A program made the translations under genes and the position numbers. A DNA stretch of 64,000 nt from a virus, in the IMG/VR virus record IMGVR_UViG_3300027706_000002, positions 1 to 64,000 of that record, one strand, 5' to 3'. The first letter of the stretch is position 1. Each line of letters starts with the position of its first letter. Below the pieces are notes generated by a model, which was given only the letters and a program-made list of their open reading frames with translations, searched no databases and was not told where the DNA came from. Positions 9,627 through 61,379 of this stretch are shown here, in pieces.

Positions 9627-10327
9627 GTCTGTCCGGTTTCCTGTAAAAATCGGAGAGCGTCGTAACCTTCTCCGCGAAAATTGGGAGCTTGTGGATGCGG
9701 ACGATTGCCCATCGAGCTAGTTAAGCCTACGTGTTGGACGAGACTGGGCGAGTGCACATATTCCTTACCGCCTGCTAGGTTGAAAGCGGTGACGATACCG
9801 CCGTCAATACTTCTCCAACCTCGATCCGGATCGGCCGCACGGTCCCATAGATGATTCGAACCGAGCAGGGTCAAAACACCCGCTCGATCGAAAACAAGGG
9901 CTACCGCTCCTCGACCCCTTTGGTTCGATTCGTACCAACCGACACGACCTTGGGCTAGTTTCTCATTAGCCGGGAAGGTGTAAAGATTGAAATAACCTCC
10001 CTTGGGATAGGGAGTACGTTCGAGATACTCGCGAAGATTGCGATAGGTCACGAGATCGTCCTGGAAGATGGCATAACGTTCTGCTGTAGGCTGACGAAGA
10101 TAGATCTCGGCCAGAGCCAGGGTCCAGTTGGCAGCAGTTCGTATCTTCGGCCAGTGATTCGTTACTTCGAGCTCGTAACGATAGTCTTCTGTGACCGATC
10201 GCGAAGAACAATCGTCAACGAAGATCCAAGGCTTATCGAAGCCGGCTCTTGCCAGACTCGTAAGAGTTCTGGGAAAAAGGTCGTCCTTGCGAGAAGGTAC
10301 AGTAGTAATACCGTAAGACCATTGCAT
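9605..10327 (-). CDS. Glycosyltransferase, GT-A like
   Basis: A 240-residue protein beginning with the GT2-like strand YGITTVPSRKD, a long DDCS segment near residue 39 and an acidic metal-binding motif FQDDLV near residue 89. The C-terminal block PSLVQHVGLTSSMG is typical of phage and viral glycosyltransferases related to families 2 and 25. It is the first gene of the sugar island, overlapping the end of the tail gene upstream as TAATG. The acceptor could be tail protein or DNA; context next to tail genes favours virion protein. Confidence 0.78.
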   Translation of the reverse strand: MQWSYGITTVPSRKDDLFPRTLTSLARAGFDKPWIFVDDCSSRSVTEDYRYELEVTNHWPKIRTAANWTLALAEIYLRQPTAERYAIFQDDLVTYRNLREYLERTPYPKGGYFNLYTFPANEKLAQGRVGWYESNQRGRGAVALVFDRAGVLTLLGSNHLWDRAADPDRGWRSIDGGIVTAFNLAGGKEYVHSPSLVQHVGLTSSMGNRPHPQAPNFRGEGYDALRFLQETGQTCNPSET

Positions 10328-11169
10328 TAGTGGTTAAATTCCTCAATCGACCACACGGTGTGACCTTCGGCGGCCAAGGTGTTGCCTACGAGAAGGTTCA
10401 GAGGTCCGCCACTATTCTGATAAACGTAAACAGTGAGGAGATTCGTAGCAGCTAAAGGAGATATAAAAGAGCAATTATGTGCGGTGTAGGTGCCGTTTAC
10501 CGCATTAACCGTATTGTCGGCTAGTACGAATCCTGTATCTTCGTAAACCTGTATCTGTCGATAGCCAGTTGCGTTACTCTCCCAAAGGGCTTGCATAGTG
10601 AAGAAATAATAACCGAAAAACGGAATGTGGATCGTACTGCTTAGAGCGGAGGGTATGTAGTTATCTGTATCATAGTTTTGCGCACTCAAGGGCCATTGGA
10701 TTGGGGTGAGGGTATTATTAGGGATAGATACGTCAAGAGCGAGACCGTAGGAGGCTCTGGAGTAACGGAGAGTAGAACTTCCTCCAACAGCCGTAGGCAC
10801 CGCCCACCAGGTTCCATACTTATCTCGAGTGACAAGAATCCAGCTGTGGCCGGGAATCGCCGAACCGAGATTGTGAACCGTTTTGCTAAACTTTTGCGGG
10901 AGGAGATCGCAGGTGGTCGTTGGGTTAAGGAAACGATAGATCTCGCAAACAGCTGAACCGGGGCAGTTCCCGGAACCTGTACCTGTTCCTTCGAAGTTGA
11001 TCGCCGGAATCCCCCCGGAAGGAGTAAGAGCCGCGTAGACTTCGGGAGCGGTGTTATCTGTCGTAGGAATCGCCGGACGACGCTGCGTGTTGAGAATGCG
11101 CCTATGTTCCGCACGCACGGTCTCCAGAAGAGCCTTTTTCTGCCCGGGAGTAAAGCCGTGGTTTTGCAT
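10327..11169 (-). CDS. Virion protein with C1q/TNF-like C-terminal domain
   Basis: 280 residues. The N-terminal 100 residues contain a helical start and EVYAALTPSGGIPAI..., a block common to planctomycete phage tail proteins. Residues about 100-270 are beta-rich and resemble a jelly-roll domain of the C1q/TNF type often used by phages as a trimeric receptor-binding head. Its position at the end of the tail module suggests a tail-tip accessory. No enzymatic motif seen. Confidence 0.6.
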   Translation of the reverse strand: MQNHGFTPGQKKALLETVRAEHRRILNTQRRPAIPTTDNTAPEVYAALTPSGGIPAINFEGTGTGSGNCPGSAVCEIYRFLNPTTTCDLLPQKFSKTVHNLGSAIPGHSWILVTRDKYGTWWAVPTAVGGSSTLRYSRASYGLALDVSIPNNTLTPIQWPLSAQNYDTDNYIPSALSSTIHIPFFGYYFFTMQALWESNATGYRQIQVYEDTGFVLADNTVNAVNGTYTAHNCSFISPLAATNLLTVYVYQNSGGPLNLLVGNTLAAEGHTVWSIEEFNH

Positions 11170-32453: not shown

Positions 32454-33047
32454 TTAACTCGCCCAGCGATAGAGCTTCCTGCGGAGATGGGCTAGTGCTT
32501 TTTGTTCTTGGAGTTTAATCGCTTGCCGAGACAGACCTATCTCGCGGCCGATTTCGGCCCCGTTTCGATACTTGTAATAGATCTCTTCCAAGAGAGCTCT
32601 TTGCTTCTTGGGAAGTTCTTTAAAGGCTTTCTGTAGAGCCTCTAGAAGCTCGAAGTCCGGATCTTCCTTCGGTCGAGGAGCCTGAACCATCTCCTCCAAA
32701 CAAAGATCCTCATTTTCTAGACAGATCTGGTTCGCCAATTCGTTACGACTCTTACGCAGTAACCCATGATTTTTATTGACATAATTAAGCAAGTGGTTCA
32801 AGATACACTTTACCGCAAAGGTACTAAAAGCCACTGGCTTACCTGTTTTCTTACTCGGACGGTGAGGGTCGTACTGGTCCACGGCCCGAACGAGAGCGAA
32901 AGTACCCTCTGCTAAGAGGTCGTCCCAACTACCGATCGTACGAAGCTTCGGATCGCGATCTTTTGCGGGGAAAGCTCGCCCCGCAATCCAATAAACAAGC
33001 GGTAGATTTTCCGTAATCATCCGATCACGTTCCGGACCCTGTTTCAT
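32454..33047 (-). CDS. RNA polymerase sigma factor (sigma-70 family)
   Basis: 197 residues. Region 2 is visible as LPLVYWIAGRAF, DLLAEGTFALVRAVDQYDP and FSTFAVKCILNHLLNYV; region 4 is LPKKQRALLEEIYYKYRNGAEIGREIGLSRQAIKL near 145-180, with the helix-turn-helix at the end. Region 1 is absent and region 3 is minimal, as in short alternative sigma factors. It should redirect host RNA polymerase to phage promoters. Overlaps the next gene as ATGA. Confidence 0.9.
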   Translation of the reverse strand: MKQGPERDRMITENLPLVYWIAGRAFPAKDRDPKLRTIGSWDDLLAEGTFALVRAVDQYDPHRPSKKTGKPVAFSTFAVKCILNHLLNYVNKNHGLLRKSRNELANQICLENEDLCLEEMVQAPRPKEDPDFELLEALQKAFKELPKKQRALLEEIYYKYRNGAEIGREIGLSRQAIKLQEQKALAHLRRKLYRWAS

Positions 33048-46059: not shown

Positions 46060-46710
46060 CTACGTCGTTTTCTCGATCGCTGGTAATCCGGCGATACGCC
46101 GAACGTGGTCCAAGGATTCAATCACTCGTACACCGTCCAGGTAGACGTAGCTTCCAGCAATCCGAGGACTCAGGTCGATAAAGTGAACTTCTCGAATCGG
46201 TTGGAGAAGAACCATCTTCGGCCCCCAATTAAACCAGAAAGTACTACGACAGTAAATCGATTCCGTAAAGCCTTGGCGAAAACTGCAAATAAACTCTCCC
46301 AACTCTGAACGAAGTTTGTCATAAAGATGGACATGATACCAGAAGTTCGACTGAAGAAGATAAGTCTTATCCGAGGGATACTTCGATACTCCGCAGTCTG
46401 CGGAGAGAGAATCGTAAGCCTCGTGTAGCCAGAAGGACCAACAGTTATCCAGTAACTCCCGCTCGCGGCGGCGCAGTAACTCGCCCCGCGTTAGGGCGGC
46501 AGCTGGCCCGGGTTCTGTTCGGTAGAGTAAGATAGTGTGATCAGGATGCGGAATTGCCGTCGTTAGTTCGATCTGCAACCGAATGAACTCCGCTCGCTCT
46601 TCCTGACCATGATCCTCCAACCAATCAGCGTAGATGAGGCGCAGGCCCCTATCCGAAGGTTCTCTACAGATCGCCTCGAGAAATCCTCTATCGTCGGAAA
46701 AGGCCCCCAT
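46060..46710 (-). CDS. TIGR02996-domain protein (planctomycete marker)
   Basis: 216 residues. The N-terminal 50 residues match the TIGR02996 'repeat-companion' domain: FLEAICREPSDRGLRLIYADW then LEDHGQEERAEFIRLQIEL. In cellular genomes this domain is essentially restricted to Gemmata-like planctomycetes. The remaining part is a mixed domain rich in Tyr, Trp and Phe. It follows the primase-helicase gene directly (CAGGAGGGG site). Function unknown even in the host; in a phage it probably mimics or interferes with a host system. Confidence 0.85.
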   Translation of the reverse strand: MGAFSDDRGFLEAICREPSDRGLRLIYADWLEDHGQEERAEFIRLQIELTTAIPHPDHTILLYRTEPGPAAALTRGELLRRRERELLDNCWSFWLHEAYDSLSADCGVSKYPSDKTYLLQSNFWYHVHLYDKLRSELGEFICSFRQGFTESIYCRSTFWFNWGPKMVLLQPIREVHFIDLSPRIAGSYVYLDGVRVIESLDHVRRIAGLPAIEKTT

Positions 46711-48948: not shown

Positions 48949-49407
48949 CTAGGCGTCCTCGGGGAACGCGGCCGGCTTCTTGTCCTGCGAACCGGAGACT
49001 GCACGCCGTTCTGCTTCGGTATCCCGATTGGCTCGATCGGCAGACGTACTACTATATCCGTTCGGGTAACGAACGGCTAGCTTAGCCAGATTGTGGAGAA
49101 GAACGTCCTCCAGACGTATCCCCAAAGCGTTGCAAGCTAACGCCACGTACCACAGTAGATCGCCAAGCTCGGACTCCAGAGCTCCTCGATCGAGATCCTT
49201 TCCATAGTACAACCAGTTCTCCACGCAAGAATTGATCTCTCCAGCTTCACCGGCGATACCGATAGCCGCGTGGAGAAGACGGATCGGGGTTAAGAGCCCG
49301 ATCCCCGGAGAGGTGGGAAGAGCGGGAGGACTGAAGATCCGTATCCGAGACTCCTGCTGATCGCATTCGGTTCGGCTGGCCATCTTTTGATAAGCATCCA
49401 AGTCCAC
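48949..49407 (-). CDS. MazG-like nucleotide pyrophosphohydrolase
   Basis: 152 residues with the MazG motif set in LLHAAIGIAGEAGEINSCV near 45-63 and ESELGDLLWYVALACNALG near 77-95 (E-x-x-E...E-x-x-D pattern). Such enzymes hydrolyse (d)NTPs to monophosphates and in phages adjust nucleotide pools. The true start is GTG 49407 with AAGGAG at 7 nt; the longer frame is not supported. It belongs to an operon with thymidylate synthase and nucleotidase homologues. Confidence 0.85.
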   Translation of the reverse strand: MDLDAYQKMASRTECDQQESRIRIFSPPALPTSPGIGLLTPIRLLHAAIGIAGEAGEINSCVENWLYYGKDLDRGALESELGDLLWYVALACNALGIRLEDVLLHNLAKLAVRYPNGYSSTSADRANRDTEAERRAVSGSQDKKPAAFPEDA

Positions 49408-49424
49408 AGTACATCTCCTTTTTG

Positions 49425-49664
49425 TTAAAGAGATCCATGTAGTTGTTGTTTCGCTCGTTCGATTTCCAGGTACTTTTCCAGATAATGCTTGGCTTTTTCC
49501 AGGTCTTCGATACCTCCTTTCTTCTTCCATCGACAGATGTACTTCGTGATGACTCCTTGAAAGTAATCGAGATCGTTGGCCGCTACGAAGTCCCAGTGTT
49601 GTATGGTCATCGTTTGGTAGTGATTACCGCCTACCTGTCGATCGTTGGCGGCTTTCGAGCTCAT
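49425..49664 (-). CDS. DUF3310 (SaV-like) protein
   Basis: 79 residues matching the DUF3310/SaV-like family: DRQVGGNHYQTMTIQHWDF, then YFQGVITKYICRWKKKGG and a C-terminal LEKAKHYLEKYLE helix. The family is common in phages next to nucleotide metabolism genes and is sometimes annotated as a nucleotide kinase, without firm evidence. ATG 49664 follows AAGGAGG and overlaps the TS gene end. Confidence 0.87.
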   Translation of the reverse strand: MSSKAANDRQVGGNHYQTMTIQHWDFVAANDLDYFQGVITKYICRWKKKGGIEDLEKAKHYLEKYLEIERAKQQLHGSL

Positions 49665-50797
49665 GGTATCTCCTCCTTCTTTTTCTTCGCCTGCAAACGT
49701 CGCTCGATCCAGTTGCGGGCTGCGATTTTCCAATCATCGGCTTCGATATTTCTCGTCCAGAGTAGACTCGTTGCGGAACCTCGCTTGTAGTGCTGGTAGG
49801 CTAATAGGAGCGGAAAGGCCACATATCTGAGAAACGGCTCTTTCCATTGTAGTTTTTCAGTATCGAAGACTTCTCCGGAAAAGACCTCGACGAAGTGTGG
49901 AAGTTCTTTTTCGAAAACGACGGGATCTTGTACAAGGGGCACGAAGTTCCAATTAGAGGTTCCGTACCATTCATCGGATTTTGCGCCTCCTATTTGATAC
50001 TCCTCGAGCCACTCGAGCGGTTTCCAGTTGTCCAGGTATACATGGAGGTTGTTGGTAAATTGATTGTAGACCCCTACCTTGAGCCCCAATCGGGCCGCCA
50101 GGTACTCCTGGAGAAAAGAGAAATGTACTGCGTTGGCTCCGAGGGTTCCCCAAATCAGGTCGTTGCTGCGATTACAGACAGTAAGGTTGAGATAGGCGGG
50201 GACATCGTGGGGCTTTCCCTTGCAGCGAGGACAGGTTTCTACGCTAGAGGAATCTTTTCCTGCACACTCTGGACAGACTCCGCTTTCCACGGACAAGTAA
50301 GCGTGAGTATTACAACAGACGTCCAGACTCCTCTCCACCCAAAGCAGATCATCTTGAACGGACCACATCTGCAGTACCGCTCGCCGCGAAAACGGATTCT
50401 TTTGGAGATGGTCTACCAGGATATCGAGTTGATCGTAGAATTTCGTACCGTTGTATGCGAGAGCTTTTCGCCAACGGTAGCCGTAAGCTCCGCGTAGCGT
50501 GGTTCCATCGTCGGAGTACTGAAGCATGCGCTTATTGTAGCGAGCGAGAGATTGTACATCGTTTCTCCCAGCGAGCATCCATAACGCTTCGTACAAGTGG
50601 AAAAAGGGATTGGCGTCTCGGGCCGCGTTGAAGAGTACCCTTTCCCAAGGTCTACGGTAGGTCACTAGGACAGGCTCATCGTAGTAAGCCACCTCACCGT
50701 TTCGGCTCGGACCTGTTTCGATCGGGCCGAATCCGCTGAAAAAACAATGGACCAGACGAGCGAACGCGGTGTTGACGTTGCGGGTGCTTAGCTCCAT
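49661..50797 (-). CDS. Thymidylate synthase homologue, possibly dUMP hydroxymethylase
   Basis: 378 residues of the ThyA fold. Catalytic Cys in DVCCNTHAYL (Cys161 or Cys162), conserved CNRSNDLIWGTLGANAVHF with Asn222 that selects uracil, and NNLHVY (His252, Tyr254) for the deoxyribose. A zinc-ribbon insertion (CPEC 175-178, CPRC 189-192) separates the catalytic Cys from the NRSND block; this is unusual. It could make dTMP or, as the homologues in hypermodified phages do, 5-hydroxymethyl-dUMP. Neighbours are a nucleotidase, MazG-like and DUF3310 genes, and the thymine-modification genes lie 2 kb away. ATG 50797 has AAAGGAGG. Confidence 0.87.
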   Translation of the reverse strand: MELSTRNVNTAFARLVHCFFSGFGPIETGPSRNGEVAYYDEPVLVTYRRPWERVLFNAARDANPFFHLYEALWMLAGRNDVQSLARYNKRMLQYSDDGTTLRGAYGYRWRKALAYNGTKFYDQLDILVDHLQKNPFSRRAVLQMWSVQDDLLWVERSLDVCCNTHAYLSVESGVCPECAGKDSSSVETCPRCKGKPHDVPAYLNLTVCNRSNDLIWGTLGANAVHFSFLQEYLAARLGLKVGVYNQFTNNLHVYLDNWKPLEWLEEYQIGGAKSDEWYGTSNWNFVPLVQDPVVFEKELPHFVEVFSGEVFDTEKLQWKEPFLRYVAFPLLLAYQHYKRGSATSLLWTRNIEADDWKIAARNWIERRLQAKKKKEEIP

Positions 50798-51384
50798 GAG
50801 GGAACCTCCTTTTTGTAGACGCACGCCGTTTTCTCCAGGACTTCGCTGAGCCTGGCGAGGGGATTGTCTTGGTACGGATGCTCGGAATTGTGGTGGCGGG
50901 GAAAGACGATTCCTTGTCCTCCGGCGGCGCAAAAGCGTTCAATGTTCGTATCTCGATCATCTATCAGGATCACCGATTCTCCGGCGAAGATCTCCTTGTG
51001 AGGAGTGATGGCGAAGCGATCGAAGCGAATTCCGAAGAAACGCTTGAGCCAACGGACTTTTCCACAGTAGCTACTCACGCAACTCGAAGGTGCGCTGATT
51101 ACATGCCAATCTTCTGTAATTTCTTGGGTAAGAGCCAAAACTCCTCGAGCCCAAGGTGTCGGCTCTAATTTCGCCCAGAACATCTCCGAACCGTTGATTC
51201 GATCCCAAAATTCTGCTTCTAGTAGGGGCCGCTCTCTTCCTAAAGCTCGGCTCAGTGGCGGAATCAAGTCCCAGACTCCTTTTTCCCAATGTCGGAGTAC
51301 CTCTTCCTTCCGCACTCCCCAAGCTCCGCAGGCTGCCCCGACGAAGTCACACAAGACCTCGTCTAGATCGAGTAGAATTCTCAC
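50788..51384 (-). CDS. HAD-family 5'(3')-deoxyribonucleotidase
   Basis: 198 residues with the HAD nucleophile motif LLDLDEVLCDF (Asp6 and Asp8), motif II in WHVISAPSS near 92, and motif III-like LIDDRDTNIERF near 140. The family dephosphorylates dUMP/dTMP. Next to a TS homologue it may remove dTMP so that modified precursors dominate, as dTMPases do in SPO1-like phages (inference). GTG 51384 has AGGAG at 9 nt. First gene of a minus-strand operon divergent from 51521. Confidence 0.85.
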   Translation of the reverse strand: MRILLDLDEVLCDFVGAACGAWGVRKEEVLRHWEKGVWDLIPPLSRALGRERPLLEAEFWDRINGSEMFWAKLEPTPWARGVLALTQEITEDWHVISAPSSCVSSYCGKVRWLKRFFGIRFDRFAITPHKEIFAGESVILIDDRDTNIERFCAAGGQGIVFPRHHNSEHPYQDNPLARLSEVLEKTACVYKKEVPSWS

Positions 51385-51445
51385 GGTCTTAACTCCTGAA
51401 CTAATTCGTGGTTACAACTATTTTCAAAAATTTTTACAAATGGGC

Positions 51446-51473
51446 TTGTATTTAAATCCCACCCTATTATAAT
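51446..51473 (+). promoter_or_regulatory. Sigma-70-type promoter
   Basis: TTGTAT (51446-51451), 16-nt spacer, and a perfect TATAAT (51468-51473), with an A/T-rich UP-like tract at 51414-51440. It lies in the 136-nt divergent spacer and drives the plus-strand operon starting at 51521. The best promoter in the window and of host type, suggesting immediate-early use. Confidence 0.82.
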
Positions 51474-51520
51474 GTACAGTAGTCGGAGATTACTAGTACA
51501 CGAGAAAAGGAGCCTCCCCG

Positions 51521-51772
51521 ATGAACGACACCGTAGCGAGTCTGGTCCACCTGTACAAAACTGCCGCTGATCTGGAGCGCAGCGAGCAAGAGTTTCAAGA
51601 CACTCTCGGCCTGCTCGACAGCCTGAACAAGCCAGCCTTACTAACTTTGACTCGCCAGATGAACCTGGTCCTACCTTCGCGGATCTCCACCGAGCTCCTG
51701 CGCATCCGTATCCGCGAGCGGATCCGCAACCGTCGCGGTATGGCGTTACGTTGCGAGATGTTGGGTTACTAA
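51521..51772 (+). CDS. Hypothetical helical protein, 83 aa
   Basis: Mostly helical: VASLVHLYKTAADLERSEQEF then a basic C-terminal third (RIRIRERIRNRRG). AAAAGGAG precedes the ATG, 48 nt after the consensus promoter, so it is probably among the first genes expressed after infection. No family recognised; small early phage proteins often bind host factors. Confidence 0.68.
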   Translation: MNDTVASLVHLYKTAADLERSEQEFQDTLGLLDSLNKPALLTLTRQMNLVLPSRISTELLRIRIRERIRNRRGMALRCEMLGY

Positions 51773-51792
51773 CCAGGAAGGAGCGATTCCCC

Positions 51793-51821
51793 TTGAATCT
51801 TTCAACGACCTGCGGTACAAT
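51793..51821 (+). promoter_or_regulatory. Sigma-70-type promoter before the winged-helix gene
   Basis: TTGAAT (51793-51798), exactly 17 nt, and TACAAT (51816-51821). It is 100 nt upstream of the gene at 51922, leaving a leader of about 90 nt. The -10 box lies in the centre of the palindrome listed separately. Confidence 0.78.
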
Positions 51822-51828
51822 CCGCAGG
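51809..51828 (+). promoter_or_regulatory. Palindromic operator centred on the -10 box
   Basis: Perfect 7-bp arms CCTGCGG (51809-51815) and CCGCAGG (51822-51828) flank the 6-bp TACAAT -10 element exactly. A dimeric DNA-binding protein bound here would block open-complex formation. The next gene encodes a winged-helix protein, a natural candidate for auto-repression. The symmetry is directly seen; the function is inferred. Confidence 0.65.
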
Positions 51829-51921
51829 GATGGGCCCTGTTGATCCACCTCCCCGATTCGGTAGGGCCTGGAAACGCTGGGAGTTCCAGCGGCTAACGGA
51901 TCAAATACAAAGGAGTCTCGC

Positions 51922-52314
51922 ATGCCAGTTTCTACCAAGTCCACTTCCTCTTCCTCCAAGAAAACCCACACGGAGAACGGCAACGGCCATCGTGGACGGG
52001 CACGTAAGGAGGGTCTGCGATCTCCGCAGATTCGTATTCTACAAGCTCTCTCCAAGGCCAAAAGTCCTATGACCCGCTCGGAGATCGCAGCGAAGTCCGG
52101 AGTCGATCCCGCTTGGTTCACGTCCTACATCGGGGCGCAAGACGAGCTTCGTATGAAGGAACTGGAGCGGATCCGGGGGTTCAAGTCCCTGATCGCTCTG
52201 GACTACGTGCGTCGCGAGCGTCACGACGTTGAGGGTCGGGATACCGATCTCCACCAGATCACCGTCCAAGGCCGCAAAGCTCTGCAAAAGGCTCTACAAG
52301 CGGCGGAAGCGTAG
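51922..52314 (+). CDS. Winged-helix DNA-binding protein, 130 aa
   Basis: A low-complexity N-terminus (Ser/Thr/Lys, residues 1-30) is followed by a MarR/PadR-type winged helix: SPQIRILQALSKAKSPMTRSEIAAKSGVDPAWF (34-66), then ALDYVRRERHDVEGRDTD (wing) and ITVQGRKALQKA. Very similar small winged-helix proteins are, as I recall, frequent in planctomycetes. ATG 51922 has AAAGGAG. It may regulate its own palindromic promoter. Confidence 0.8.
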   Translation: MPVSTKSTSSSSKKTHTENGNGHRGRARKEGLRSPQIRILQALSKAKSPMTRSEIAAKSGVDPAWFTSYIGAQDELRMKELERIRGFKSLIALDYVRRERHDVEGRDTDLHQITVQGRKALQKALQAAEA

Positions 52315-52333
52315 TTCCTCGGTTTCCACGTTC

Positions 52334-52357
52334 CTTGGAGTCCTACTTGGAGTCCTA
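52334..52357 (+). repeat. Tandem 12-bp repeat carrying a doubled ribosome site
   Basis: CTTGGAGTCCTA occurs twice in direct succession (52334-52345, 52346-52357), each copy containing GGAG, immediately before ATG 52360. The duplication gives two potential ribosome binding sites of which the second is at 9 nt spacing. Confidence 0.75.
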
Positions 52358-52359
52358 CG

Positions 52360-52557
52360 ATGCAACTCCACATCGATACCCGGATGATTCGCAACCAAGG
52401 CCGAAGAGCCTATCGGGCTTGTGTGCTTGACCGCGATTCCCTGGAGGAGATCTACACTACTCCGCGTAGCTATCCCACGGCCCAAGACGCTTCTGACGTG
52501 GCTTGGGATTGGGTCCAGGAGAACTATCCCTTCGCGTCCGTGACTACGGAGGACTGA
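52360..52557 (+). CDS. Hypothetical protein, 65 aa
   Basis: Small alpha/beta protein: RRAYRACVLDRDSLEEIYT then YPTAQDASDVAWDWVQENY helix. Preceded by the tandem repeat ribosome site and followed by the strong terminator, so it is the last gene of the right plus-strand operon. No family recognised. Confidence 0.68.
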   Translation: MQLHIDTRMIRNQGRRAYRACVLDRDSLEEIYTTPRSYPTAQDASDVAWDWVQENYPFASVTTED

Positions 52558-52560
52558 GCC

Positions 52561-52582
52561 TCCTCTCCTCTCCTCTCCTCTC
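52561..52582 (+). repeat. TCCTC microsatellite
   Basis: Four perfect TCCTC units plus two bases directly after the stop codon of the 65-aa gene and before the terminator. The purine/pyrimidine strand bias could form triplex DNA, but no role is evident. Confidence 0.7.
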
Positions 52583-52596
52583 TGGAGCTATCTCTC

Positions 52597-52630
52597 CTCC
52601 CCGTCCTCTCCTCCCCGAGAGGACGGGGAG
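52597..52630 (+). terminator. Strong rho-independent terminator
   Basis: Perfect 14-bp stem (arms 52597-52610 and 52617-52630) with a 6-nt loop followed by TTTCGTTT on the plus strand. It ends the 51521-52557 operon at a convergent junction. Confidence 0.9.
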
Positions 52631-52686
52631 TTTCGTTTAGACCTAACGCTCTCCTATCCTTCCCCCTAACGCTTCTCCTTGGCTAG

Positions 52687-52746
52687 GATCGTCTAGGACG
52701 AACGCGAACTCCTTCGTTGTGGGGTGGGTCAATTCCCTAGACGATC
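52687..52746. repeat. 11-bp inverted repeat at the convergent junction
   Basis: Arms GATCGTCTAGG (52687-52697) and CCTAGACGATC (52736-52746) are perfect complements, enclosing 38 nt with an inner ACGAA/TTCGT pair. It lies in the 196-nt spacer between the plus-strand terminator and the end of the minus-strand modification operon, with no gene between. It may be the minus-strand terminator or an RNA-stabilising structure, though there is no T-run. Confidence 0.6.
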
Positions 52747-52753
52747 GCCCCAC

Positions 52754-53737
52754 CTACCACAAGCCTGCAAGTTTGCCGGCCCGATAGAGCCTTTGGACGA
52801 GCCGAGATCGGCCGAAGCGAGCCAGAGAGCGGCGGCAGGCCGCGATATCCTCACCGACATGGTAGCGTCCCCGAGTATGCGCCTCCCACTTGCAGAGGAT
52901 CGTCTCGGCTTCCTGGACGTTGAGGGGACGGTCCTCCCTCGGAGGAGCCTTACGGCCGGATTGCCCTCGAAGGACTCTCCGCACCGCCCACAGCCCTAGA
53001 TCGGCGGGGAACTCCCCCTTGCCGGTCTCCTGTCTCCACAGCCGAGCGGCCCCTTCGAGGGGTGAGGAGTAGAGGGCAAAGACAGACTCCGGAGGAAAGC
53101 GGACGCGAGCCAGTCCTAACCGCTCGAGCATATCAGAGGCCTTGAAGCCGATCCAGGGGCCGAATCCGATCCAGCCCTGGACGTGCCGGAGAACCTCCAC
53201 TAGACTCTTCGCCGTCTCTTCCCCGGTTAGCAAGGGTCCGAACAGCCTGTCGATCCCTTGCTGCCTCAGCCAAGTAGAGGACCGCACGGCGATCTGTCCT
53301 CGATAGTGCCGACGTTCCTTCCCGCGAGGATAGTAAGCGGAGCGGGCTGCACGACAGAAGGCTCTCCAGTAGTGAGGCTCCTCGTGCTCCGCGATCCAAC
53401 TTGCGGTTCCTATATCGTAATAGGACCAGTAAGCGAGAAGCCAACGACTACACAGTGCTAGGTCCCTCGAGAATCCGGCTGTATGGAGAAGTACATAGAC
53501 AGGATCGAGATCCCGAGTCTCCAGGAGCTTCCGACCGAAAGCGTCTACGTCAAGGTGAGCCAAGCGAGGATGGTAGGCACCGCCTGCTCTACGCTCTTGC
53601 GGTAACAGGGTACTCCCTTTTCCAGAAGACGGAGTCTGGCCTTGTAGATCGTTTGTACTCGGTGTACCGTATTGTGGGGATTGAGTGGTTTGTCGTTGCC
53701 GACGCTGGCCCTTCTTCCTTGAATCCTTTGTAGGCAT
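52754..53737 (-). CDS. Alpha-glutamyl/putrescinyl thymine pyrophosphorylase-like protein (clade 3 type)
   Basis: 327 residues; the helical domain of the amino-acid:DNA transferase / thymine pyrophosphorylase superfamily is seen as RDLDPVYVLLHTAG, SRWLLAYWSYYDIGTASWI, YPRGKERRHYRG and GWIGFGPWIGFKASDML. Members act on pyrophosphorylated 5-hydroxymethyluracil in phage DNA and attach an amine such as putrescine or glutamate. The basic N-terminal 60 residues overlap the upstream kinase frame by 193 nt, so the real start may be nearer 53563. It closes the modification operon. Confidence 0.8.
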   Translation of the reverse strand: MPTKDSRKKGQRRQRQTTQSPQYGTPSTNDLQGQTPSSGKGSTLLPQERRAGGAYHPRLAHLDVDAFGRKLLETRDLDPVYVLLHTAGFSRDLALCSRWLLAYWSYYDIGTASWIAEHEEPHYWRAFCRAARSAYYPRGKERRHYRGQIAVRSSTWLRQQGIDRLFGPLLTGEETAKSLVEVLRHVQGWIGFGPWIGFKASDMLERLGLARVRFPPESVFALYSSPLEGAARLWRQETGKGEFPADLGLWAVRRVLRGQSGRKAPPREDRPLNVQEAETILCKWEAHTRGRYHVGEDIAACRRSLARFGRSRLVQRLYRAGKLAGLW

Positions 53738-54081
53738 GTTTCGACTGCTGTAGTCAGAAATAACACGCGAAGTTGTGGAATCCTGGCGGACCACTTGACG
53801 TCTTCACTCAAGAGTAAACCTTCGCAAAGCACCTTGGGAAAATCTCGGCGGACCTTTTCTAGTAAACGGAAGACTTCGGCCGCAGAACCGATTGTATCAC
53901 AACCGCCGCAAGGAGTCTCGTAGTGTCCTAAGATAGCCATCGGGCCATCGAGTTGGTAGTAGTACAATGGTTTTCTACGGCCGGGGACGTAACGCGGTTC
54001 CCACCTTCCTAGAGCTTCCATGACTCTTCGAACCACGGTGCTTTTGCCAGATCCGGAAGTACCGCGTACTTGTATAATCAC
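53545..54081 (-). CDS. 5-hydroxymethyl-dU DNA kinase homologue (P-loop)
   Basis: 178 residues with Walker A GTSGSGKST (7-15) and the hallmark blocks RRKPLYYYQL, LGHYETPCGGCDTI near 51-64 and VLCEGLLLSED near 85, ending with RIQGRRAS and PLNPHNT. This set matches phage P-loop kinases that phosphorylate 5-hmdU within DNA, rather than adenylate or thymidylate kinases. It overlaps the unknown 171-aa gene as ATGA and the pyrophosphorylase downstream, so the three are co-translated. Confidence 0.85.
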   Translation of the reverse strand: MIIQVRGTSGSGKSTVVRRVMEALGRWEPRYVPGRRKPLYYYQLDGPMAILGHYETPCGGCDTIGSAAEVFRLLEKVRRDFPKVLCEGLLLSEDVKWSARIPQLRVLFLTTAVETCLQRIQGRRASVGNDKPLNPHNTVHRVQTIYKARLRLLEKGVPCYRKSVEQAVPTILAWLTLT

Positions 54082-54593
54082 AGTACAAGCTCCATCGGTT
54101 CTAAAGCCTGACCCATGAAAGCTGCGTAGATATTCTCCGCGTTGAGAAGGTAGCGTACCTCTTCGAAGACGTTCGGCAGGATTACTCCTTTGTGCCGAGC
54201 TTTCTTGAGGAGAGAGCTAGGACAGAACCGGCGATAATCATCCTTAAACGGATGCGGAGATCCTGCGAGATAGTGCCCCTCAGCGGCTGCTGCTCCGTAG
54301 AGAACGAAAAGGAACTTCTCTCGCGATCCCTCGAGAAGAAAGTCCGCTCCAGGGAGCATCCAACGACCCGTTCCATGCGAAGCAGCTAGATCGGCCGCGT
54401 AGACGATCAGGCCTCTTACATATTGAAGTTTACTGGCCGGCCAAAGTAGGTTGACCTCCAAAACGTCTCCTGGAACTGCGGGACGGTCCGGAGGTTCTTC
54501 CAGGAGGCTAAAGCCGACACTCTTGCTTACCTTGCGGACTTCGTTGAAGACCACGTTGCTCATGTCTTGGAAACTGACTTCGTTCGCAGTCAT
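54078..54593 (-). CDS. Hypothetical protein of the modification operon, 171 aa
   Basis: Alpha/beta protein with DVLEVNLLWPASKLQYVRGLIVY near 43-65, a GTGRWMLPGADFLLEG block near 74, and HPFKDDYRRFCPSSLLKKARHKG near 113. No family recognised. Its ATGA overlap with the DNA kinase ties it closely to base modification, so it is a good candidate for a tailoring enzyme or substrate-binding partner. AAGGAG 7 nt before ATG 54593 sets the start. Confidence 0.68.
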   Translation of the reverse strand: MTANEVSFQDMSNVVFNEVRKVSKSVGFSLLEEPPDRPAVPGDVLEVNLLWPASKLQYVRGLIVYAADLAASHGTGRWMLPGADFLLEGSREKFLFVLYGAAAAEGHYLAGSPHPFKDDYRRFCPSSLLKKARHKGVILPNVFEEVRYLLNAENIYAAFMGQALEPMELVL

Positions 54594-54627
54594 CACTGTA
54601 CTCCTTTTAAGGATCTCGGCGAGTACC

Positions 54628-54858
54628 CTACACGGTTCGTAAATCTCTCACCCAGGATGGTTCGGGAAGACGTACCACGTCATCGTTGTCAGAAGCGTGT
54701 AAGTGCTCCCGCATCGCCCACTCGAAAGCGGCTGCACGTTGATCATAGGTCCAAGAGGCGATTCTAGCCTTATCCACTTCCTCGAAGTCCGCGAGCAGAA
54801 GAGCCGTCGCGACTGATTTCGGATCAGTAGTGCGCTGACAGATGTTGAAATCGGTCAT
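54628..54858 (-). CDS. Hypothetical protein, 76 aa
   Basis: Small acidic helical protein with VATALLLADFEEVDKARIAS and DQRAAAFEWAMREHLHAS helices. It overlaps the FkbM gene as ATGA and has TAAAGGAG upstream. This type of short helical protein is common in phage metabolic operons; function unknown. Confidence 0.66.
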   Translation of the reverse strand: MTDFNICQRTTDPKSVATALLLADFEEVDKARIASWTYDQRAAAFEWAMREHLHASDNDDVVRLPEPSWVRDLRTV

Positions 54859-55562
54859 CGTTGTGCTCCTTTACAGAAAATCAGGCGATCGAAGTAAGTC
54901 TTAGCAGAGTTCCCTTCACGGAGAAGCCGATCATATTCTGGGGGATAACGGACTTCTCGAAAACGACGGTGGAGTTTCTCGAGTCGTCTACGCAGATTGT
55001 CTACGCTTGGATCTCGGCTGGTGTGATATTCAAGAACGAGCTTTTCGCACTTCGGCAGGAGATCTTCGTCGAGGATACCGAATTCACTTCCCTCGATATC
55101 CATCTTGATCCCTTGGACAAAATAGAACTGTTTCTTGAGTTCTCCAGCCCAGAGATTCTCTACCGTCCTATGTTGTTTTGACCCTCGATACTCCAAAAGG
55201 CTTCCGCGAGCGTATTTACCTGACGCAGAGGACTGAAAGAAAGAGACTCGAGAGTCTTTCTTACAGCTTACTGCTCGGTTAATACAGCGGAAGTCTACGG
55301 CGTTACGGCGTAGAATCGCAAAGCAATCCGGATCCGGTTCGTAGCAGATCGCCGTAGCTCCTACTGTTTTGCAGTAGACAGCGAAAGCTCCGATATTCGC
55401 CCCTAGGTCCAACCAAGTCTCCCCAGCTTCTACATCGAAACCGAACGAAGGCCGGCGGTAACACTTCCGCTCGAGGACCTCCTGGAGAATATTCTCGTCC
55501 GAGGTTCCCGGGCGGTAAACCAACGGTATCCCTTCGTATTCCTTGTATTTTAACGATTCCAT
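54855..55562 (-). CDS. FkbM-family SAM methyltransferase
   Basis: 235 residues with motif I TWLDLGANIGAFAVYC near 50-65, the acidic ribose-binding residue in ICYEPDPDCF near 75-85, and the FkbM signature KMDIEGSEFGILDE near 150. FkbM enzymes methylate hydroxyls on sugars and other small groups. In this operon it may methylate the hypermodified base or an attached group, which is inference. It overlaps both neighbours. Confidence 0.85.
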   Translation of the reverse strand: MESLKYKEYEGIPLVYRPGTSDENILQEVLERKCYRRPSFGFDVEAGETWLDLGANIGAFAVYCKTVGATAICYEPDPDCFAILRRNAVDFRCINRAVSCKKDSRVSFFQSSASGKYARGSLLEYRGSKQHRTVENLWAGELKKQFYFVQGIKMDIEGSEFGILDEDLLPKCEKLVLEYHTSRDPSVDNLRRRLEKLHRRFREVRYPPEYDRLLREGNSAKTYFDRLIFCKGAQR

Positions 55563-56005
55563 AACCTGCGGATCTCCTGTTTGATGGCCCGTTCTAGCTC
55601 CGCCTCATCCCGGAACGGTCTGGGGTTTTGCCATAGTTTTAGAGCCAATCGCATACCGGCCCTCCTTTCGGGACTTCTGGTAAGCTCCAAAGGACTTCCT
55701 GGCCGATAAGCCTCTTTATGGGACTCCGTAGTACCAATCAGGTTCATCAGACCTTTGCGGTACTTCTCGGCGGAGACCCATTGCGGACGACATCTGTAGC
55801 AAACCTGACGGAGAAACGGTATGACTTTTTGTATAAACTCGAGGGCCTCTTTAATGGTGGACACGAGGTTGTGGGCGATAAGGGTCCTCCCCATGTTCTT
55901 GACCAGGGTGAGAGTAATTGATTTTATCTGTTGCGTTTCAGGCTGTACACGAGTCGGGTGTAGACCGTCGGTGCGGTAGTTCTTGTAAGGCTTTCTTGCG
56001 TTCAT
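55550..56005 (-). CDS. Hypothetical protein, 151 aa
   Basis: Basic, helical protein: TLVKNMGRTLIAHNLVSTIKEALEFIQ, a FLRQVCYRCRPQWVSAEKY block with a CxxC-like pair near 66-69, and a C-terminal charged helix AELERAIKQEIRRLWN. Start ATG 56005 follows AGGA and overlaps the next gene. No family recognised; CYRC may bind zinc. Confidence 0.62.
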   Translation of the reverse strand: MNARKPYKNYRTDGLHPTRVQPETQQIKSITLTLVKNMGRTLIAHNLVSTIKEALEFIQKVIPFLRQVCYRCRPQWVSAEKYRKGLMNLIGTTESHKEAYRPGSPLELTRSPERRAGMRLALKLWQNPRPFRDEAELERAIKQEIRRLWNR

Positions 56006-56853
56006 GTTGGTAATCCTGAGTAAAGCTGTTTCGGTCGGCCCTGTCCCCAAAGGGCACGTTCGTACTTATCCCACTCACACAGACAATTCTGGAGGTCGAT
56101 AGCCTCGAGCCGAGAGTAGATTTTGTTCGGTAGTTCGTTCGAACAGAGGACGAGGAGCTTACCGAACTCCTGTTCGAACTGTTGACGGAGGAGAGAGGTC
56201 TTATAGGGTCGATCATACAATCGGTTCATTCCTCGGACCGATCCTGGACCTACAGGAGCCCAAGTCTTTCGATCCCTCCAAGTACCCGCTACCGCCCAAC
56301 GGAGATCCGCTACAACCTGTCCTGCCATAAAACTACTAAACCCCCAGTAGGGTAGTAAGGCTTCCACCGATTTCCGCATAGAGTTCAGGTCTAGAATCGG
56401 TGGATGATTTACCAAGGGTTGACAGACCTTATCAATCACCATCTCCGTCTTATCCGTTGTTCCAATGCCGCGTACCATATAGGCCGCGTTGAAAATCCGC
56501 TCGCCCTGGCGCTTTAACTCCCGGAGGATGCCTTTAAACAGGAGTGGTTTCCAATCCTTCGGGAAACCGATAGCCTCCAAGGCGAGCGGTTGGTTGAAAT
56601 GCCGAGCTATCGTACAAGCTACAAGCATGTGGGGGTGATCGTAGTTGGGTAGATACCAATTTTGGAGTAACCAGGTACTCACCTTATCGTCCATGCGCCG
56701 CACATTACAGAAACGGTACTTCTGAAGAATCTCATCATCCGTCCAGGGCCGCAATTGACCGGCGGTTTTGCGACAGCGAATCGCCTCCCGTTCCTCAATC
56801 CAATAGAGGAAACGCTCGGTATTCTTCAAACGTTTTACCTGTTCTATGCGCAC
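56002..56853 (-). CDS. Thymine-hypermodification helical-domain protein (HMUDK_hel/ADDT type)
   Basis: 283 residues with the conserved blocks FLYWIEEREAIRCRK near 14-28, PWTDDEILQKYRFCNVRRMDD near 34-54, STWLLQNWYLPN, and GFSSFMAGQVVADL near 175. This alpha-helical domain accompanies 5-hmdU DNA kinases and is related to the alpha-glutamyl/putrescinyl thymine pyrophosphorylases. It is a second, distinct member beside 52754-53737. GTG 56853 has AAGGAAA at 8 nt and is preferred over a TTG at 56874. Directly downstream of the DNA polymerase gene. Confidence 0.8.
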   Translation of the reverse strand: MRIEQVKRLKNTERFLYWIEEREAIRCRKTAGQLRPWTDDEILQKYRFCNVRRMDDKVSTWLLQNWYLPNYDHPHMLVACTIARHFNQPLALEAIGFPKDWKPLLFKGILRELKRQGERIFNAAYMVRGIGTTDKTEMVIDKVCQPLVNHPPILDLNSMRKSVEALLPYWGFSSFMAGQVVADLRWAVAGTWRDRKTWAPVGPGSVRGMNRLYDRPYKTSLLRQQFEQEFGKLLVLCSNELPNKIYSRLEAIDLQNCLCEWDKYERALWGQGRPKQLYSGLPT

Positions 56854-56876
56854 GGATCGACTTTCCTTTTGCAAAC

Positions 56877-58985
56877 TTACAGGGTAATTCCTTCGCTCCA
56901 GTTATCGGGATGGTACTCACAGCCTACGGGGGTCGGAATCCCAAAATCCAATTCCCCACCTTTCGCCATCAGCTGTTGAATAACACGTATCCTCCACAAA
57001 TTGGAAATTGGGGATTTCTTACCGTTACGACCCGGAGAAGCCTGCGCTTCGGCTACGGGATCTCCTCCTTTCGGAAAATCAAGTACGAGTTCGTCGTGTA
57101 CTTGCATTGTAATTCGACCGTCGAATCCTAGTTTTTTCCATTCGTTGAGTTTCTCCTGAACTCGTAGCATCGCTTTCATCGTCCACCACATCGCAGAGCC
57201 TTGGATATGATAGTTCAAGGGAACAGTTTCCAAGATCTTACCGAACTCCGTCCGTGTACACAGCAGCGGATAGCCACGTTCTGGATCGACCGTCCGATCG
57301 GGAATCGTCTCCACATAACCGAAACGGTTCGCCAAGTCGATACACTTGCGGTTGAGAGCCTCGAGCTTACCGAATCGTTCTTTCAAGCGAGCGTGTGAAC
57401 CGAGACGGTGGAAAGCTCGATCAGCGGTTCCCCACTGTCGAGGATCGTTTGGGAGAACTGCTCCGTATTGCACTGCGAATCCGCCGTTCTTACACCACTG
57501 ATACCAGGTGGCCGCGTACTTCTTTTTACAGTGCGGACCCACCTTCTCCCGTCCGACCTCCCGAAGCTCCTTTTCCCAGATATCAGGGTAGACGGTGTGG
57601 AAATTAAGCAGGTGTGTTGAACCATAATAGGGCGGATCGTCCGGATGCTCAAAGAGTTCGATCAACTCCTTCTCGCCCGACTCGTAAGCCGGCAGACGTA
57701 GCTCGATATTCTTGGCGTCTAGAGACCACCATTCCCTTCCCGGAGCCGGCCCGAAACAGTAGCGGAGGTTAAAACCTTCTTGCTTACTGATGTTTTGCTC
57801 GTTGGGGTTATTGCTACTCCAACGCAGGGTATCGGTTCCCGTCGGGTTAAGTTGCGGATGGAGAAGAAACCACTCTTCGGTATCCTCTTTTCCAAGAGGA
57901 AGCCAAAATCTTCTGTAGGCTTCCATATAGGTAATCGCAGTGTCTCGCCGTCTCTTCTGTTCGAGAGCCTCGAAGTACCGTCGATACTTGCTACGTTCGG
58001 GTAGCTGCTCTTGAAGAAGACGTAAGGCCGCTTTATTGAGACTGAGGGAGCCTTTTTCCGTTCGAGGGATAGCGATACTCCCCGCGTTACTGCGACGAAA
58101 GCCTTCGTTAAGCACCGCTACCGAGCATTCTAGGAGGGACTTATTATTTCCAGATTTGGGAAGACGGAGTTCCTTACCGAGCGAACTGGCAATCGAAACC
58201 ATTACCCGACCGAGTCGAGAAGACTCTTCACGGTATTCTTGTAAGAGCTTGATTTGTCGTTTTCGGCTAATCGTAACTCCTTCTCGCTCCATCGTGTGGG
58301 CAATAGGTAAGACCTTACGACGTTCTTGATAGATGCGCAGGAGCTTTCGCTTTTCCAAGAGTCTCTCAAAAACTTTCCAAAGCTCTAAGGTCACCGCCGA
58401 GTCGGTGTTGGCATAATCGGCGGTAATGGTTTTCCAAGATTCAGGGGTTGTTTCCGGCTCGAGATTGTATAATTGCCGGGGAAGCCACAGATCGAATTTC
58501 CAGGTAGACTCCTTAGCGGAAGGCATATGCGGATCGCCTTGGGTAGCGATTCTCCAATCCATACCCTTGGCAATTCGGCGAGCCTGGAGGAGAGCCTCCT
58601 TGAGCCGAGCCTCGTAGGGCTGGATATCCTCGTTGAGGTAGAACAAAGCCATCGAGGTCAGGTCGTGCGGCCGATTAGAAGCAAGAAGATGACCGGCTAG
58701 CAGCGTATCGTCTACCTTTTCCCAAGGTACAACGATTCCCAAGGTTCTTAGTGCGGCTATGTCGAACTTGGTGTTTTGACCGACGATACGTTGTGCAGAT
58801 AGAAGAAGAAAGCGAATCTCATCGAGATCGCTAGCAGGGACTTTCGGTTGTCGATTTTCGGGATCGACCTCCCACTCCCAGTAGAATACCTCTCCGTCAT
58901 CTCGAGCAATCGTCACGAGGAAAGGTTTCGCTCCGTGGTAGAAATCAACTCCGGTGGTTTCTGTATCCAGTGCGATCATCCGCAT
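56877..58985 (-). CDS. DNA polymerase I-like (family A) with 3'-5' exonuclease
   Basis: 702 residues. Exonuclease motifs: ALDTETTGVD (Asp7, Glu9), NTKFDIAAL (71-79), and YANTDSAVT (191-199). Polymerase motif A is WSLDAKNIELRL (Asp423, Glu428; the usual is DYSQIELR), motif B has Lys499, Phe503 and Tyr507 in CKNGGFAVQYGA, and motif C is MQVHDELVLDF (Asp631, Glu632). No 5'-3' exonuclease domain. Phe at the '762' position is linked to fast, accurate phage polymerases and virulent lifestyles. Start ATG 58985 lacks a strong ribosome site; TTG 58997 is possible. Confidence 0.93.
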   Translation of the reverse strand: MRMIALDTETTGVDFYHGAKPFLVTIARDDGEVFYWEWEVDPENRQPKVPASDLDEIRFLLLSAQRIVGQNTKFDIAALRTLGIVVPWEKVDDTLLAGHLLASNRPHDLTSMALFYLNEDIQPYEARLKEALLQARRIAKGMDWRIATQGDPHMPSAKESTWKFDLWLPRQLYNLEPETTPESWKTITADYANTDSAVTLELWKVFERLLEKRKLLRIYQERRKVLPIAHTMEREGVTISRKRQIKLLQEYREESSRLGRVMVSIASSLGKELRLPKSGNNKSLLECSVAVLNEGFRRSNAGSIAIPRTEKGSLSLNKAALRLLQEQLPERSKYRRYFEALEQKRRRDTAITYMEAYRRFWLPLGKEDTEEWFLLHPQLNPTGTDTLRWSSNNPNEQNISKQEGFNLRYCFGPAPGREWWSLDAKNIELRLPAYESGEKELIELFEHPDDPPYYGSTHLLNFHTVYPDIWEKELREVGREKVGPHCKKKYAATWYQWCKNGGFAVQYGAVLPNDPRQWGTADRAFHRLGSHARLKERFGKLEALNRKCIDLANRFGYVETIPDRTVDPERGYPLLCTRTEFGKILETVPLNYHIQGSAMWWTMKAMLRVQEKLNEWKKLGFDGRITMQVHDELVLDFPKGGDPVAEAQASPGRNGKKSPISNLWRIRVIQQLMAKGGELDFGIPTPVGCEYHPDNWSEGITL

Positions 58986-59000
58986 CGCAGCACCCAAGAA

Positions 59001-60316: not shown

Positions 60317-61204
60317 TTACTCGGGTTTAATCAGGGAACGAATCTTCTCGTAACTGGGATCCACGATACAAGCAGGAATTTCTCGGGCACTCCTTCGAGG
60401 AGTGCGGAACTTTGCGTAGTACACCGGATCGGGAGCCGTGCGTAGACAGAACTCGACCTTACCTCCTTTCCTCTGTATTGTTTTAAACTTATTGGGACCG
60501 ATCTTGATCTTTTTCTCTACGGCTCCTTCACGGAGGAAAGTCTGGACGACGTAGTCTACCGCTGTGTTCAACCATCTCGCGATGGAAGGTTGTAGACTAG
60601 CCCCCACATAGGGAGCGAGAAGCTCCTGATTATCTTCAGCAGAGAATTCTCGCTCTTGAGCGACCACGACCACGTGTTGCTGTATTCGCAGAAGATCGTG
60701 CAGGTGTTTTCTGAAACGAACGGTCACTTGACCGTACTGTTCGCGACTAGCGAGACCCCAATTCTTTTGCAAAAGGGTCCCTTCCTCCAGTCCGAGAATC
60801 TCCTGCAGGAGAAGATCCTGGAAGCCGGAAGCGTGGTCGAGAACGAGGGTGCGATACTTACCCTCTTGTCCACGTAACCAAGTGAGGATCTCCTCCAATT
60901 CCTCGCTCTCTTGGAGAGCAACCTGATGGATCGTCTTACGATACTCGGGAGTATCAATGCTTCGCAGTTCCCCGGATTGGTTTCCTCCGGAACTAATAAT
61001 TGCCAGGATTGGCTTGGGGAAGGTCGCCCAGAAGGTGGTCTTCCCGGTTCCACTTCGGCCGTAGACCAACATCTTCAAGCCTTCTTCTTCATCGAAACCG
61101 ATCGGAGCGATACGATTAACGATTCCTGGAACAGCCTGTCCGTTGACCGTCCTAGGGTCAGACTTGGAGATCGGGATCGGGCGTTGCGGGGTCACCTTCG
61201 GCAT
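60317..61204 (-). CDS. RecA-like P-loop ATPase (AAA_24/Sak4 type)
   Basis: 295 residues with Walker A YGRSGTGKTTFW (48-59), Walker B TLVLDHASGF near 118, and IQQHVVVVAQERE near 167, the pattern of AAA_24 phage recombinases/ATPases such as Sak4. It probably works with the adjacent ssDNA-binding-like protein in strand annealing or replication. It starts inside the CsrA gene (47-nt overlap) with AAGGAG upstream. Confidence 0.85.
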   Translation of the reverse strand: MPKVTPQRPIPISKSDPRTVNGQAVPGIVNRIAPIGFDEEEGLKMLVYGRSGTGKTTFWATFPKPILAIISSGGNQSGELRSIDTPEYRKTIHQVALQESEELEEILTWLRGQEGKYRTLVLDHASGFQDLLLQEILGLEEGTLLQKNWGLASREQYGQVTVRFRKHLHDLLRIQQHVVVVAQEREFSAEDNQELLAPYVGASLQPSIARWLNTAVDYVVQTFLREGAVEKKIKIGPNKFKTIQRKGGKVEFCLRTAPDPVYYAKFRTPRRSAREIPACIVDPSYEKIRSLIKPE

Positions 61205-61379
61205 CTTGTTGCTCCTTGTTACGTTGTTTTTCCAGATACCGTTCTTCTCGTTCGACGGGAACGTCCGGAGGAGCCTGGATTCCTAGGCGAACCCGGCCTT
61301 CGCGTTGCGAGATCACGACGATACGAATATCGTCACCGATCACGATTCTTTCACCGATTTTTCGAGTGAGTACCAGCAT
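61158..61379 (-). CDS. csrA: CsrA-like RNA-binding translational regulator
   Basis: 73 residues, of which the first 48 are a textbook CsrA: MLVLTRKIGERIVIGDDI, then RVRLGIQAP and VEREE. RNA-binding residues Leu4, Arg6 and the VRLGI strand with Arg are present. Bacterial CsrA binds GGA in mRNA leaders and blocks or stabilises translation. The last 20 residues are an extra acidic, Pro-rich tail. A very strong AAAGGAGGT precedes the ATG. It is the first gene of the replication block and may retune host or phage mRNAs. Confidence 0.95.
   Translation of the reverse strand: MLVLTRKIGERIVIGDDIRIVVISQREGRVRLGIQAPPDVPVEREERYLEKQRNKEQQDAEGDPATPDPDLQV

Follow-up and report, generated by a model that had tools for sequence, protein, structure and literature searches.

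An FkbM-Family Methyltransferase within a Predicted Thymine-Hypermodification System of an IMG/VR Virus

The IMG/VR virus record IMGVR_UViG_3300027706_000002, of 66,371 bases, carries between positions 49661 and 56874 a predicted thymine-hypermodification system in which a methyltransferase of the FkbM family replaces the usual finishing enzymes; the window analysed here, to which coordinates refer, comprises the first 64,000 bases of that record. The core of the system is almost certainly an M6/PaMx11-type pathway based on 5-hydroxymethyldeoxyuridine (5-hmdU), and the FkbM protein, judged by its relatives and their gene neighbourhoods, very probably acts in base modification. An M6/PaMx11-type pathway finished by FkbM as an O-methyltransferase would best explain the locus as a whole, a reading held at even confidence, and the narrower proposal that the enzyme would O-methylate 5-hmdU specifically falls a little below that. 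An initial annotation had already predicted such a system, and its core genes are now confirmed by profile, structure, and motif searches. The FkbM linkage and clade comparisons presented below lend further weight to its idea that FkbM might give rise to a new base. A near-DNA search of the 44–60 kb part against 50,697 phage records returned zero matches.

The Core Genes of the Pathway

The 5-hmdU DNA kinase is encoded in two parts. Its helical protein, HMUDK_hel (290 aa; 56002–56874, minus strand, as are all genes of the window described here unless stated otherwise), matches PF18723 (E 2e-44) and PHROG_2396 (E 8.9e-52), and its AlphaFold model shows a confident fold, with a predicted local distance difference test score (pLDDT) of 94; the top viral-fold matches are helical domains of the 5-hmdU DNA kinases from phiW-14, RSL1, and SP10. 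The fold is also weakly, though not significantly, like that of a glycinyltransferase; a likeness to helix-hairpin-helix DNA glycosylases (best E 0.13) is weak and not significant, and can be taken as suggestive only. The P-loop subunit (178 aa; 53545–54081), in which the motifs ETPCGGCDTI and EGLLLS had been picked out as those of a 5-hmdU-DNA-kinase-type protein, has its best relatives among the PaMx11-group kinases (38–39% identity over 98% coverage; PaMx11 gp49, 38%) and keeps the Walker A motif GTSGSGKS and the other invariant residues; its score against Pfam is weak. The amino acid:DNA transferase (ADDT; about 269 aa, 52754–53563, with an inferred TTG start) overlaps the end of the kinase gene and matches PF18724 above the cut-off (E 1.2e-11) as well as PHROG_6364 (E 2.7e-49), its PDB homologues including 25qc (E 2.6e-45) and the glycinyltransferase 8z2m (E 1.2e-36). 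By their structure titles, 8z2m and 8z2n are the crystallised PaMx11 gp46, a 5-phosphomethyldeoxyuridine (5-PmdU) glycinyltransferase. The two helical proteins of the initial annotation are borne out by PF18723 and PF18724, respectively, but their designation as alpha-glutamyl/putrescinyl thymine pyrophosphorylases has to give way to kinase helical domain and ADDT. Overall, the profile searches proposed there place the kinase, the helical protein, and the transferase in the 5-hmdU DNA kinase and ADDT families with invariant residues intact, and on these sequence grounds the locus possesses both the kinase (P-loop and helical parts) and the transferase expected for hypermodification of the M6/PaMx11/ViI type.

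The thymidylate synthase (TS) homologue expected for the same pathway is also present (378 aa; 49661–50797) and is a predicted dUMP hydroxymethylase. It matches PHROG_5131 (E 5.9e-92), is 39% identical to the Yuavirus enzymes, and has as its nearest solved structure CMP 5-hydroxymethylase (E 4.9e-15, as against 8e-9 for the best TS). Its Asn222 lies opposite an Asp of CMP hydroxymethylase, at a position that selects uracil over cytosine within this fold (PMC8670742). The protein additionally has a zinc-finger-like insertion, CPEC...CPRC, and a Cys-rich insertion is found at about the same place in the homologue from L015, a locus described below.

Absence of the Usual Finishing Enzymes

Known thymine hypermodifications are completed by radical S-adenosylmethionine (SAM) and pyridoxal-phosphate (PLP) enzymes, by a flavin adenine dinucleotide (FAD)-dependent lyase and a GNAT acetyltransferase, or by a few other steps. 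Neither the PLP enzyme (PALP) nor the FAD enzyme (DAO) was detected in the whole 66-kb record even at E ≤ 1, the record likewise contains no TET-associated glycosyltransferase (TAGT, PF20691) or Tet_JBP (PF12851), and no pathway-type radical-SAM or GNAT protein occurs in the window. A radical SAM protein encoded at 6567–7520, considered as a tailoring enzyme, fails the M6-type radical-SAM profile. By gene content, the locus belongs neither to the 5-(2-aminoethyl)deoxyuridine (5-NedU) branch of M6, with PALP and radical SAM in the cassette, nor to the 5-aminomethyldeoxyuridine (5-NmdU)/acetylated branch of PaMx11, with a DAO lyase and GNAT, nor to the TAGT glycosylated-hydroxymethyluracil or TET/JBP–FkbM cassettes.

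Single-sequence scans with ADDT, FkbM, and p172, an orphan protein of the cassette, found nothing, and relatives were reached by alignment queries only. In a survey of 96 ADDT loci with family profiles, the window included, radical SAM, PALP, and/or DAO are present in 77 loci and none is recognised in the flanks of 17, while FkbM occurs in just two, the window and L015; these counts are approximate, as some loci are truncated or lie on a shared contig. The IMG/VR clade L094–L106 with L119 (Pol A–hel–kinase–radical SAM–ADDT–PALP–NT5C–TS–primase) shares the backbone and gene order of the window, with identities of 37–51% for ADDT and 34–59% for the kinase, but there the place next to the kinase and ADDT is normally taken by radical SAM, PALP, or DAO, most members holding radical SAM plus PALP or DAO. 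The comparison of operon content among related phages, which the initial annotation had proposed as a check, shows the usual finishing enzymes replaced by FkbM in the window.

Several of the surveyed loci carry further genes. L015 (8004–14941) has the order hel–kinase–divergent ADDT–FkbM–myo-inositol-1-phosphate-synthase-like gene–TS, and an inositol-linked base is possible there. In L099 (4542–7191), ATP-grasp (glutathione-synthetase-like) and JmjC/cupin-like genes lie downstream of ADDT and PALP and perhaps provide further tailoring. An aldo-keto reductase is encoded at 9706–10557 of L094, where the ADDT cassette also holds DAO and radical SAM; L125 and L170 have the same trio.

The FkbM Protein and Its Relatives

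The methyltransferase (235 aa; 54855–55562), a SAM-dependent enzyme and the predicted base-tailoring enzyme of the cassette, matches TIGR01444 (E 8e-18; 65.2 bits, cut-off 37.7) and PF05050 (35.3 bits, cut-off 22.7), so that its original assignment to FkbM stands above both curated cut-offs. Members of this family carry out O-methylation and often act on sugars, natural products, and many small molecules. In named phages the nearest relatives lie in ParB–Tet_JBP–FkbM cassettes (Pelagibacter phage HTVC112P gp17–19; Prochlorococcus phage MED4-184), and cultured phages with a homologous FkbM cassette include HTVC112P, MED4-184, and P-HS2. No earlier mention of FkbM in TET/JBP operons was found in the literature searched, outside whose scope lie the original pathway papers.

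When IMG/VR was scanned with an FkbM alignment and the best 80 viral relatives were classed by their neighbours, 72 had a DNA 5-hydroxymethylpyrimidine system at most 4 kb away: 65 are accompanied by ParB and/or TET/JBP and seven by HMUDK_hel and/or TS, one of these seven also by kinase and ADDT, while eight have neither. The curated Pfam model confirmed Tet_JBP in 34 of the 50 records examined, with no hel-linked record among these 34. A modification core lies near 36 of the 42 FkbMs that score above 40 bits against the window protein, as against 1 of 31 control FkbMs, which were gathered from the unlinked branch and score less than 40 bits; some contigs occur in both sets. Maximum-likelihood analysis places the window FkbM in a clade with those of L176–L180, all five HMUDK_hel-linked, with support of 100/96. 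Four of them (L176, L177, L179, and L180), 44–51% identical to the window protein, belong to hel–FkbM–TS cassettes, and ADDT, kinase, and TAGT were sought on these contigs and not found. L180 is also a backbone sister of the window, with Pol A–ribonucleotide reductase–hel–FkbM–TS–primase in the same order and identities of 44% for FkbM, 46% for hel, 46% for TS, and 53% for Pol A; it differs from the window in that kinase and ADDT were not found. In L178, FkbM overlaps ADDT, followed by an ApbA-like protein, the kinase, hel, and TS.

The Helical Protein in Other Loci

Among 156 hel-bearing loci, the partner within 2.5 kb is TAGT in 48, kinase in 40, kinase with ADDT in 36, FkbM alone in 4, FkbM with kinase and ADDT in 3 (the window included), FkbM with TAGT in 2, and ADDT alone in 1; none of these accompanies hel in the other 22, although in some of them it is flanked by sulfotransferase-like, radical-SAM/SPASM, or divergent TAGT-like genes. 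These neighbourhoods fit a role of the helical protein as a 5-hmdU-DNA recognition module common to different transferases, beyond the kinase, and "kinase helical domain" may be a misleading name for the family. In L065, L066, and about 50 other ADDT-free loci, HMUDK_hel occurs with TAGT and TS, a kinase not having been found there; such hel–TAGT–TS loci are probable glycosylated 5-hmdU systems.

Comparison with Known Systems

Pseudomonas phage PaMx11, of the 5-NmdU type, uses TS, the kinase gp49, the helical protein gp50, the glycinyltransferase gp46, the FAD oxidoreductase gp47, and the acetyltransferase gp48. The window shares with it the core (kinase 38%, hel 32%, ADDT 32%, and TS 41% identity) and the separation of kinase and helical protein into two genes, but lacks the FAD lyase and GNAT and has FkbM and three orphan genes instead. 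In the 5-NedU Pseudomonas phages M6 and Lydia, with genes for ADDT, PLP enzyme, radical SAM, kinase, hel, and TS, the shared core is 39% identical for both ADDT and TS, whereas the PLP enzyme and a homologous radical SAM are missing from the window. HTVC112P and MED4-184 have a homologous FkbM (32% and 30%, respectively), but there a TET/JBP oxygenase makes the hydroxymethyl group, and Pfam searches of their cassette genes found neither TS nor the helical protein. The 5-hydroxymethylcytosine carbamoyltransferase known from MetaGPA (PMC8670742) likewise acts directly on the hydroxymethyl of a modified pyrimidine; it transfers carbamoyl to cytosine, whereas transfer of methyl to a uracil derivative is predicted in the window.

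Proposed Pathway and Alternatives

In the proposed pathway, the TS homologue would convert dUMP to 5-hydroxymethyl-dUMP, with the 5'-deoxyribonucleotidase NT5C and MazG shifting the nucleotide pools, and the phage Pol A would incorporate 5-hmdU. The helical protein would bind 5-hmdU sites and, together with the P-loop kinase, phosphorylate them in DNA, and ADDT would then exchange the phosphate for an amino acid, by homology most likely glycine, like the crystallised PaMx11 homologue. FkbM would work as an O-methyltransferase on the 5-hydroxymethyl-derived group, replacing radical-SAM/PLP or FAD-lyase/GNAT tailoring, and the three orphans, p166, p76, and p172, would be accessory factors. Its likeliest substrate would be the 5-hmdU hydroxyl missed by the kinase, giving 5-methoxymethyldeoxyuridine, and the second choice the amino-acid adduct. 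As the FkbM clade works with TS and hel, with TS, hel, kinase, and ADDT, and distantly with TET/JBP, its common substrate should be the 5-hydroxymethyl group, which makes conversion of 5-hmdU to 5-methoxymethyldeoxyuridine the most economical prediction. Four of the five closest FkbM relatives are found without a detected kinase, transferase, or glycosyltransferase, for which 5-hmdU would again be the simplest common substrate. Only part of thymine is hypermodified in M6-like phages, about 30% in Yuavirus phages (PMC11946847), so that 5-hmdU could remain available to FkbM.

Several points weigh against this reading. A small-molecule or glycan target of FkbM is possible; the presence of both FkbM and ADDT in L178 and L015 fits methylation of the adduct equally well; the base in the TET/JBP cassettes may be thymine or 5-methylcytosine; any of the three orphans could be the true finishing enzyme; and the contigs without kinase and ADDT are fragments of 17.9–33.8 kb, so that these partners may be encoded elsewhere.

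The alternative that survives best, although doubtful, is that the target of FkbM is the amino acid which ADDT attaches. It would then form an N-methyl derivative or carboxyl-methyl ester of glycinyl-thymine, or methylate the side chain of another amino acid, in place of the radical-SAM/PLP or FAD-lyase step. The position of FkbM inside the kinase/ADDT operon of the window and next to ADDT in L178 and L015, together with the lack of the usual tailoring enzymes in the window and L015, argues for adduct methylation, whereas the four nearest FkbMs occur without a detected ADDT, and amino-acid transfer is not known for the relatives linked to TET/JBP. It is improbable that an ordinary M6/PaMx11-type system ends here at glycinyl-thymine and that FkbM is merely co-operonic, methylating, e.g., a glycan or host molecule: the 17 ADDT loci without a recognised tailoring gene and the many small-molecule substrates of FkbM enzymes are consistent with it, but against it stands how strongly and non-randomly this FkbM subfamily is linked to varied DNA-modification cores, which lie near a single one of the 31 distant FkbMs. 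A similarly low probability is given to one of the orphans being the finishing enzyme, maybe of an unrecognised class, with FkbM as one of several steps towards a more complex base; all three lie within the cassette and two of them, p172 and p76, score well on codon use, but homologue, fold, and motif searches yield no support for catalysis. A decayed or inactive cluster, with plain thymine or 5-hmdU in the virion, is very unlikely: nothing speaks for it directly, the one argument being that the usual finishing enzymes are missing, and every core frame is open, the motifs are conserved, and the starts overlap.

Gene Organisation and Other Features of the Window

Read 5' to 3' on the minus strand, the open reading frames (ORFs) called are RecA-like, SSB-like, Pol A, HMUDK_hel, p166, FkbM, p76, p172, kinase, and ADDT, and from Pol A to ADDT the gene ends mostly overlap or touch. 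Pol A (56877–58997), a DNA polymerase I-like protein encoded upstream of the cassette, has the same gene order and 40–53% identity in many clade relatives. A second minus-strand unit consists of NT5C, the TS homologue, DUF3310, MazG, and a primase-like protein; the single operon with Pol A described in the initial annotation therefore holds for Pol A through ADDT but not for TS, NT5C, and MazG, although these are present nearby, as it stated, on the minus strand and with domains above Pfam cut-offs. The NT5C-type 5'-deoxyribonucleotidase (198 aa; 50788–51384; PF06941, E 2.4e-10) occupies the same position in many clade relatives, and is accompanied by the DUF3310 protein (49425–49733; PF11753, E 2.5e-9) and the MazG-like nucleotide pyrophosphohydrolase (ORF 48949–49530; PF03819, E 1.9e-9; PHROG_229, E 5.4e-36). 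Between the two units lie three plus-strand genes (51521–52557), one encoding a helix-turn-helix protein, and a GC-rich 14-bp hairpin (52597–52630), a possible terminator between converging units, terminator-like matches being overall no commoner than in shuffles. The ORF at 51381–52121 was dropped as a gene, its codon score being that of non-coding sequence.

The three orphans had been listed as proteins of 171, 76, and 151 aa; all are present, and the size of 76 aa was right, but the others are of 172 and 166 aa. p166 (55550–56050; 150 aa from a start at 56002) has a weak codon score that barely exceeds the non-coding 95% level, while those of p172 (54078–54596) and p76 (54628–54858, with a 4-nt overlap with the end of FkbM) are good. 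No family or homologue of p166 was found in the libraries searched, a match to MiaE (E 0.0097) being weak and unconvincing, and p76 has no homologue in the family libraries and phage relatives searched. Searches with p172 and p166 across phages, IMG/VR, GTDB genomes, the PDB, and family libraries (the set of libraries differing between the two) gave no homologues, and the AlphaFold model of p172 is unreliable (pLDDT 40).

Elsewhere in the window, a protein encoded at 46060–46710 contains the Gemmata obscuriglobus repeat-companion domain TIGR02996 (70 bits, cut-off 29), which suggests a planctomycete (Gemmataceae-like) host. A CsrA-like regulator (61158–61379; PF02599, E 4.6e-21; NF002469, 72 bits with a cut-off of 73) adjoins the RecA-like gene, and the phage encodes a sigma-70-like factor (32454–33047). 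A second enzyme cluster at 4369–11169, comprising the radical SAM protein rejected above, two Methyltransf_24 proteins, and glycosyltransferase-like and UDP-glucose-dehydrogenase-like proteins, perhaps serves a virion glycan or further modification.

Significance

It is tentatively proposed that this FkbM subfamily consists of DNA O-methyltransferases capping the hydroxyls of 5-hydroxymethylpyrimidines, in the window to 5-methoxymethyldeoxyuridine. Such capping would be interchangeable with transfers of the kinase/amino-acid, glycosyl, and other kinds, and HMUDK_hel would serve throughout as the module that targets 5-hmdU; the phage of the window would join the methyl and amino-acid branches. 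The window predicts a DNA base undescribed in the literature searched. From a methyltransferase recurring beside different 5-hydroxymethylpyrimidine routes one would predict DNA-modifying enzymes of a new class and a base that is small and uncharged, and such a base may aid phage escape from restriction.

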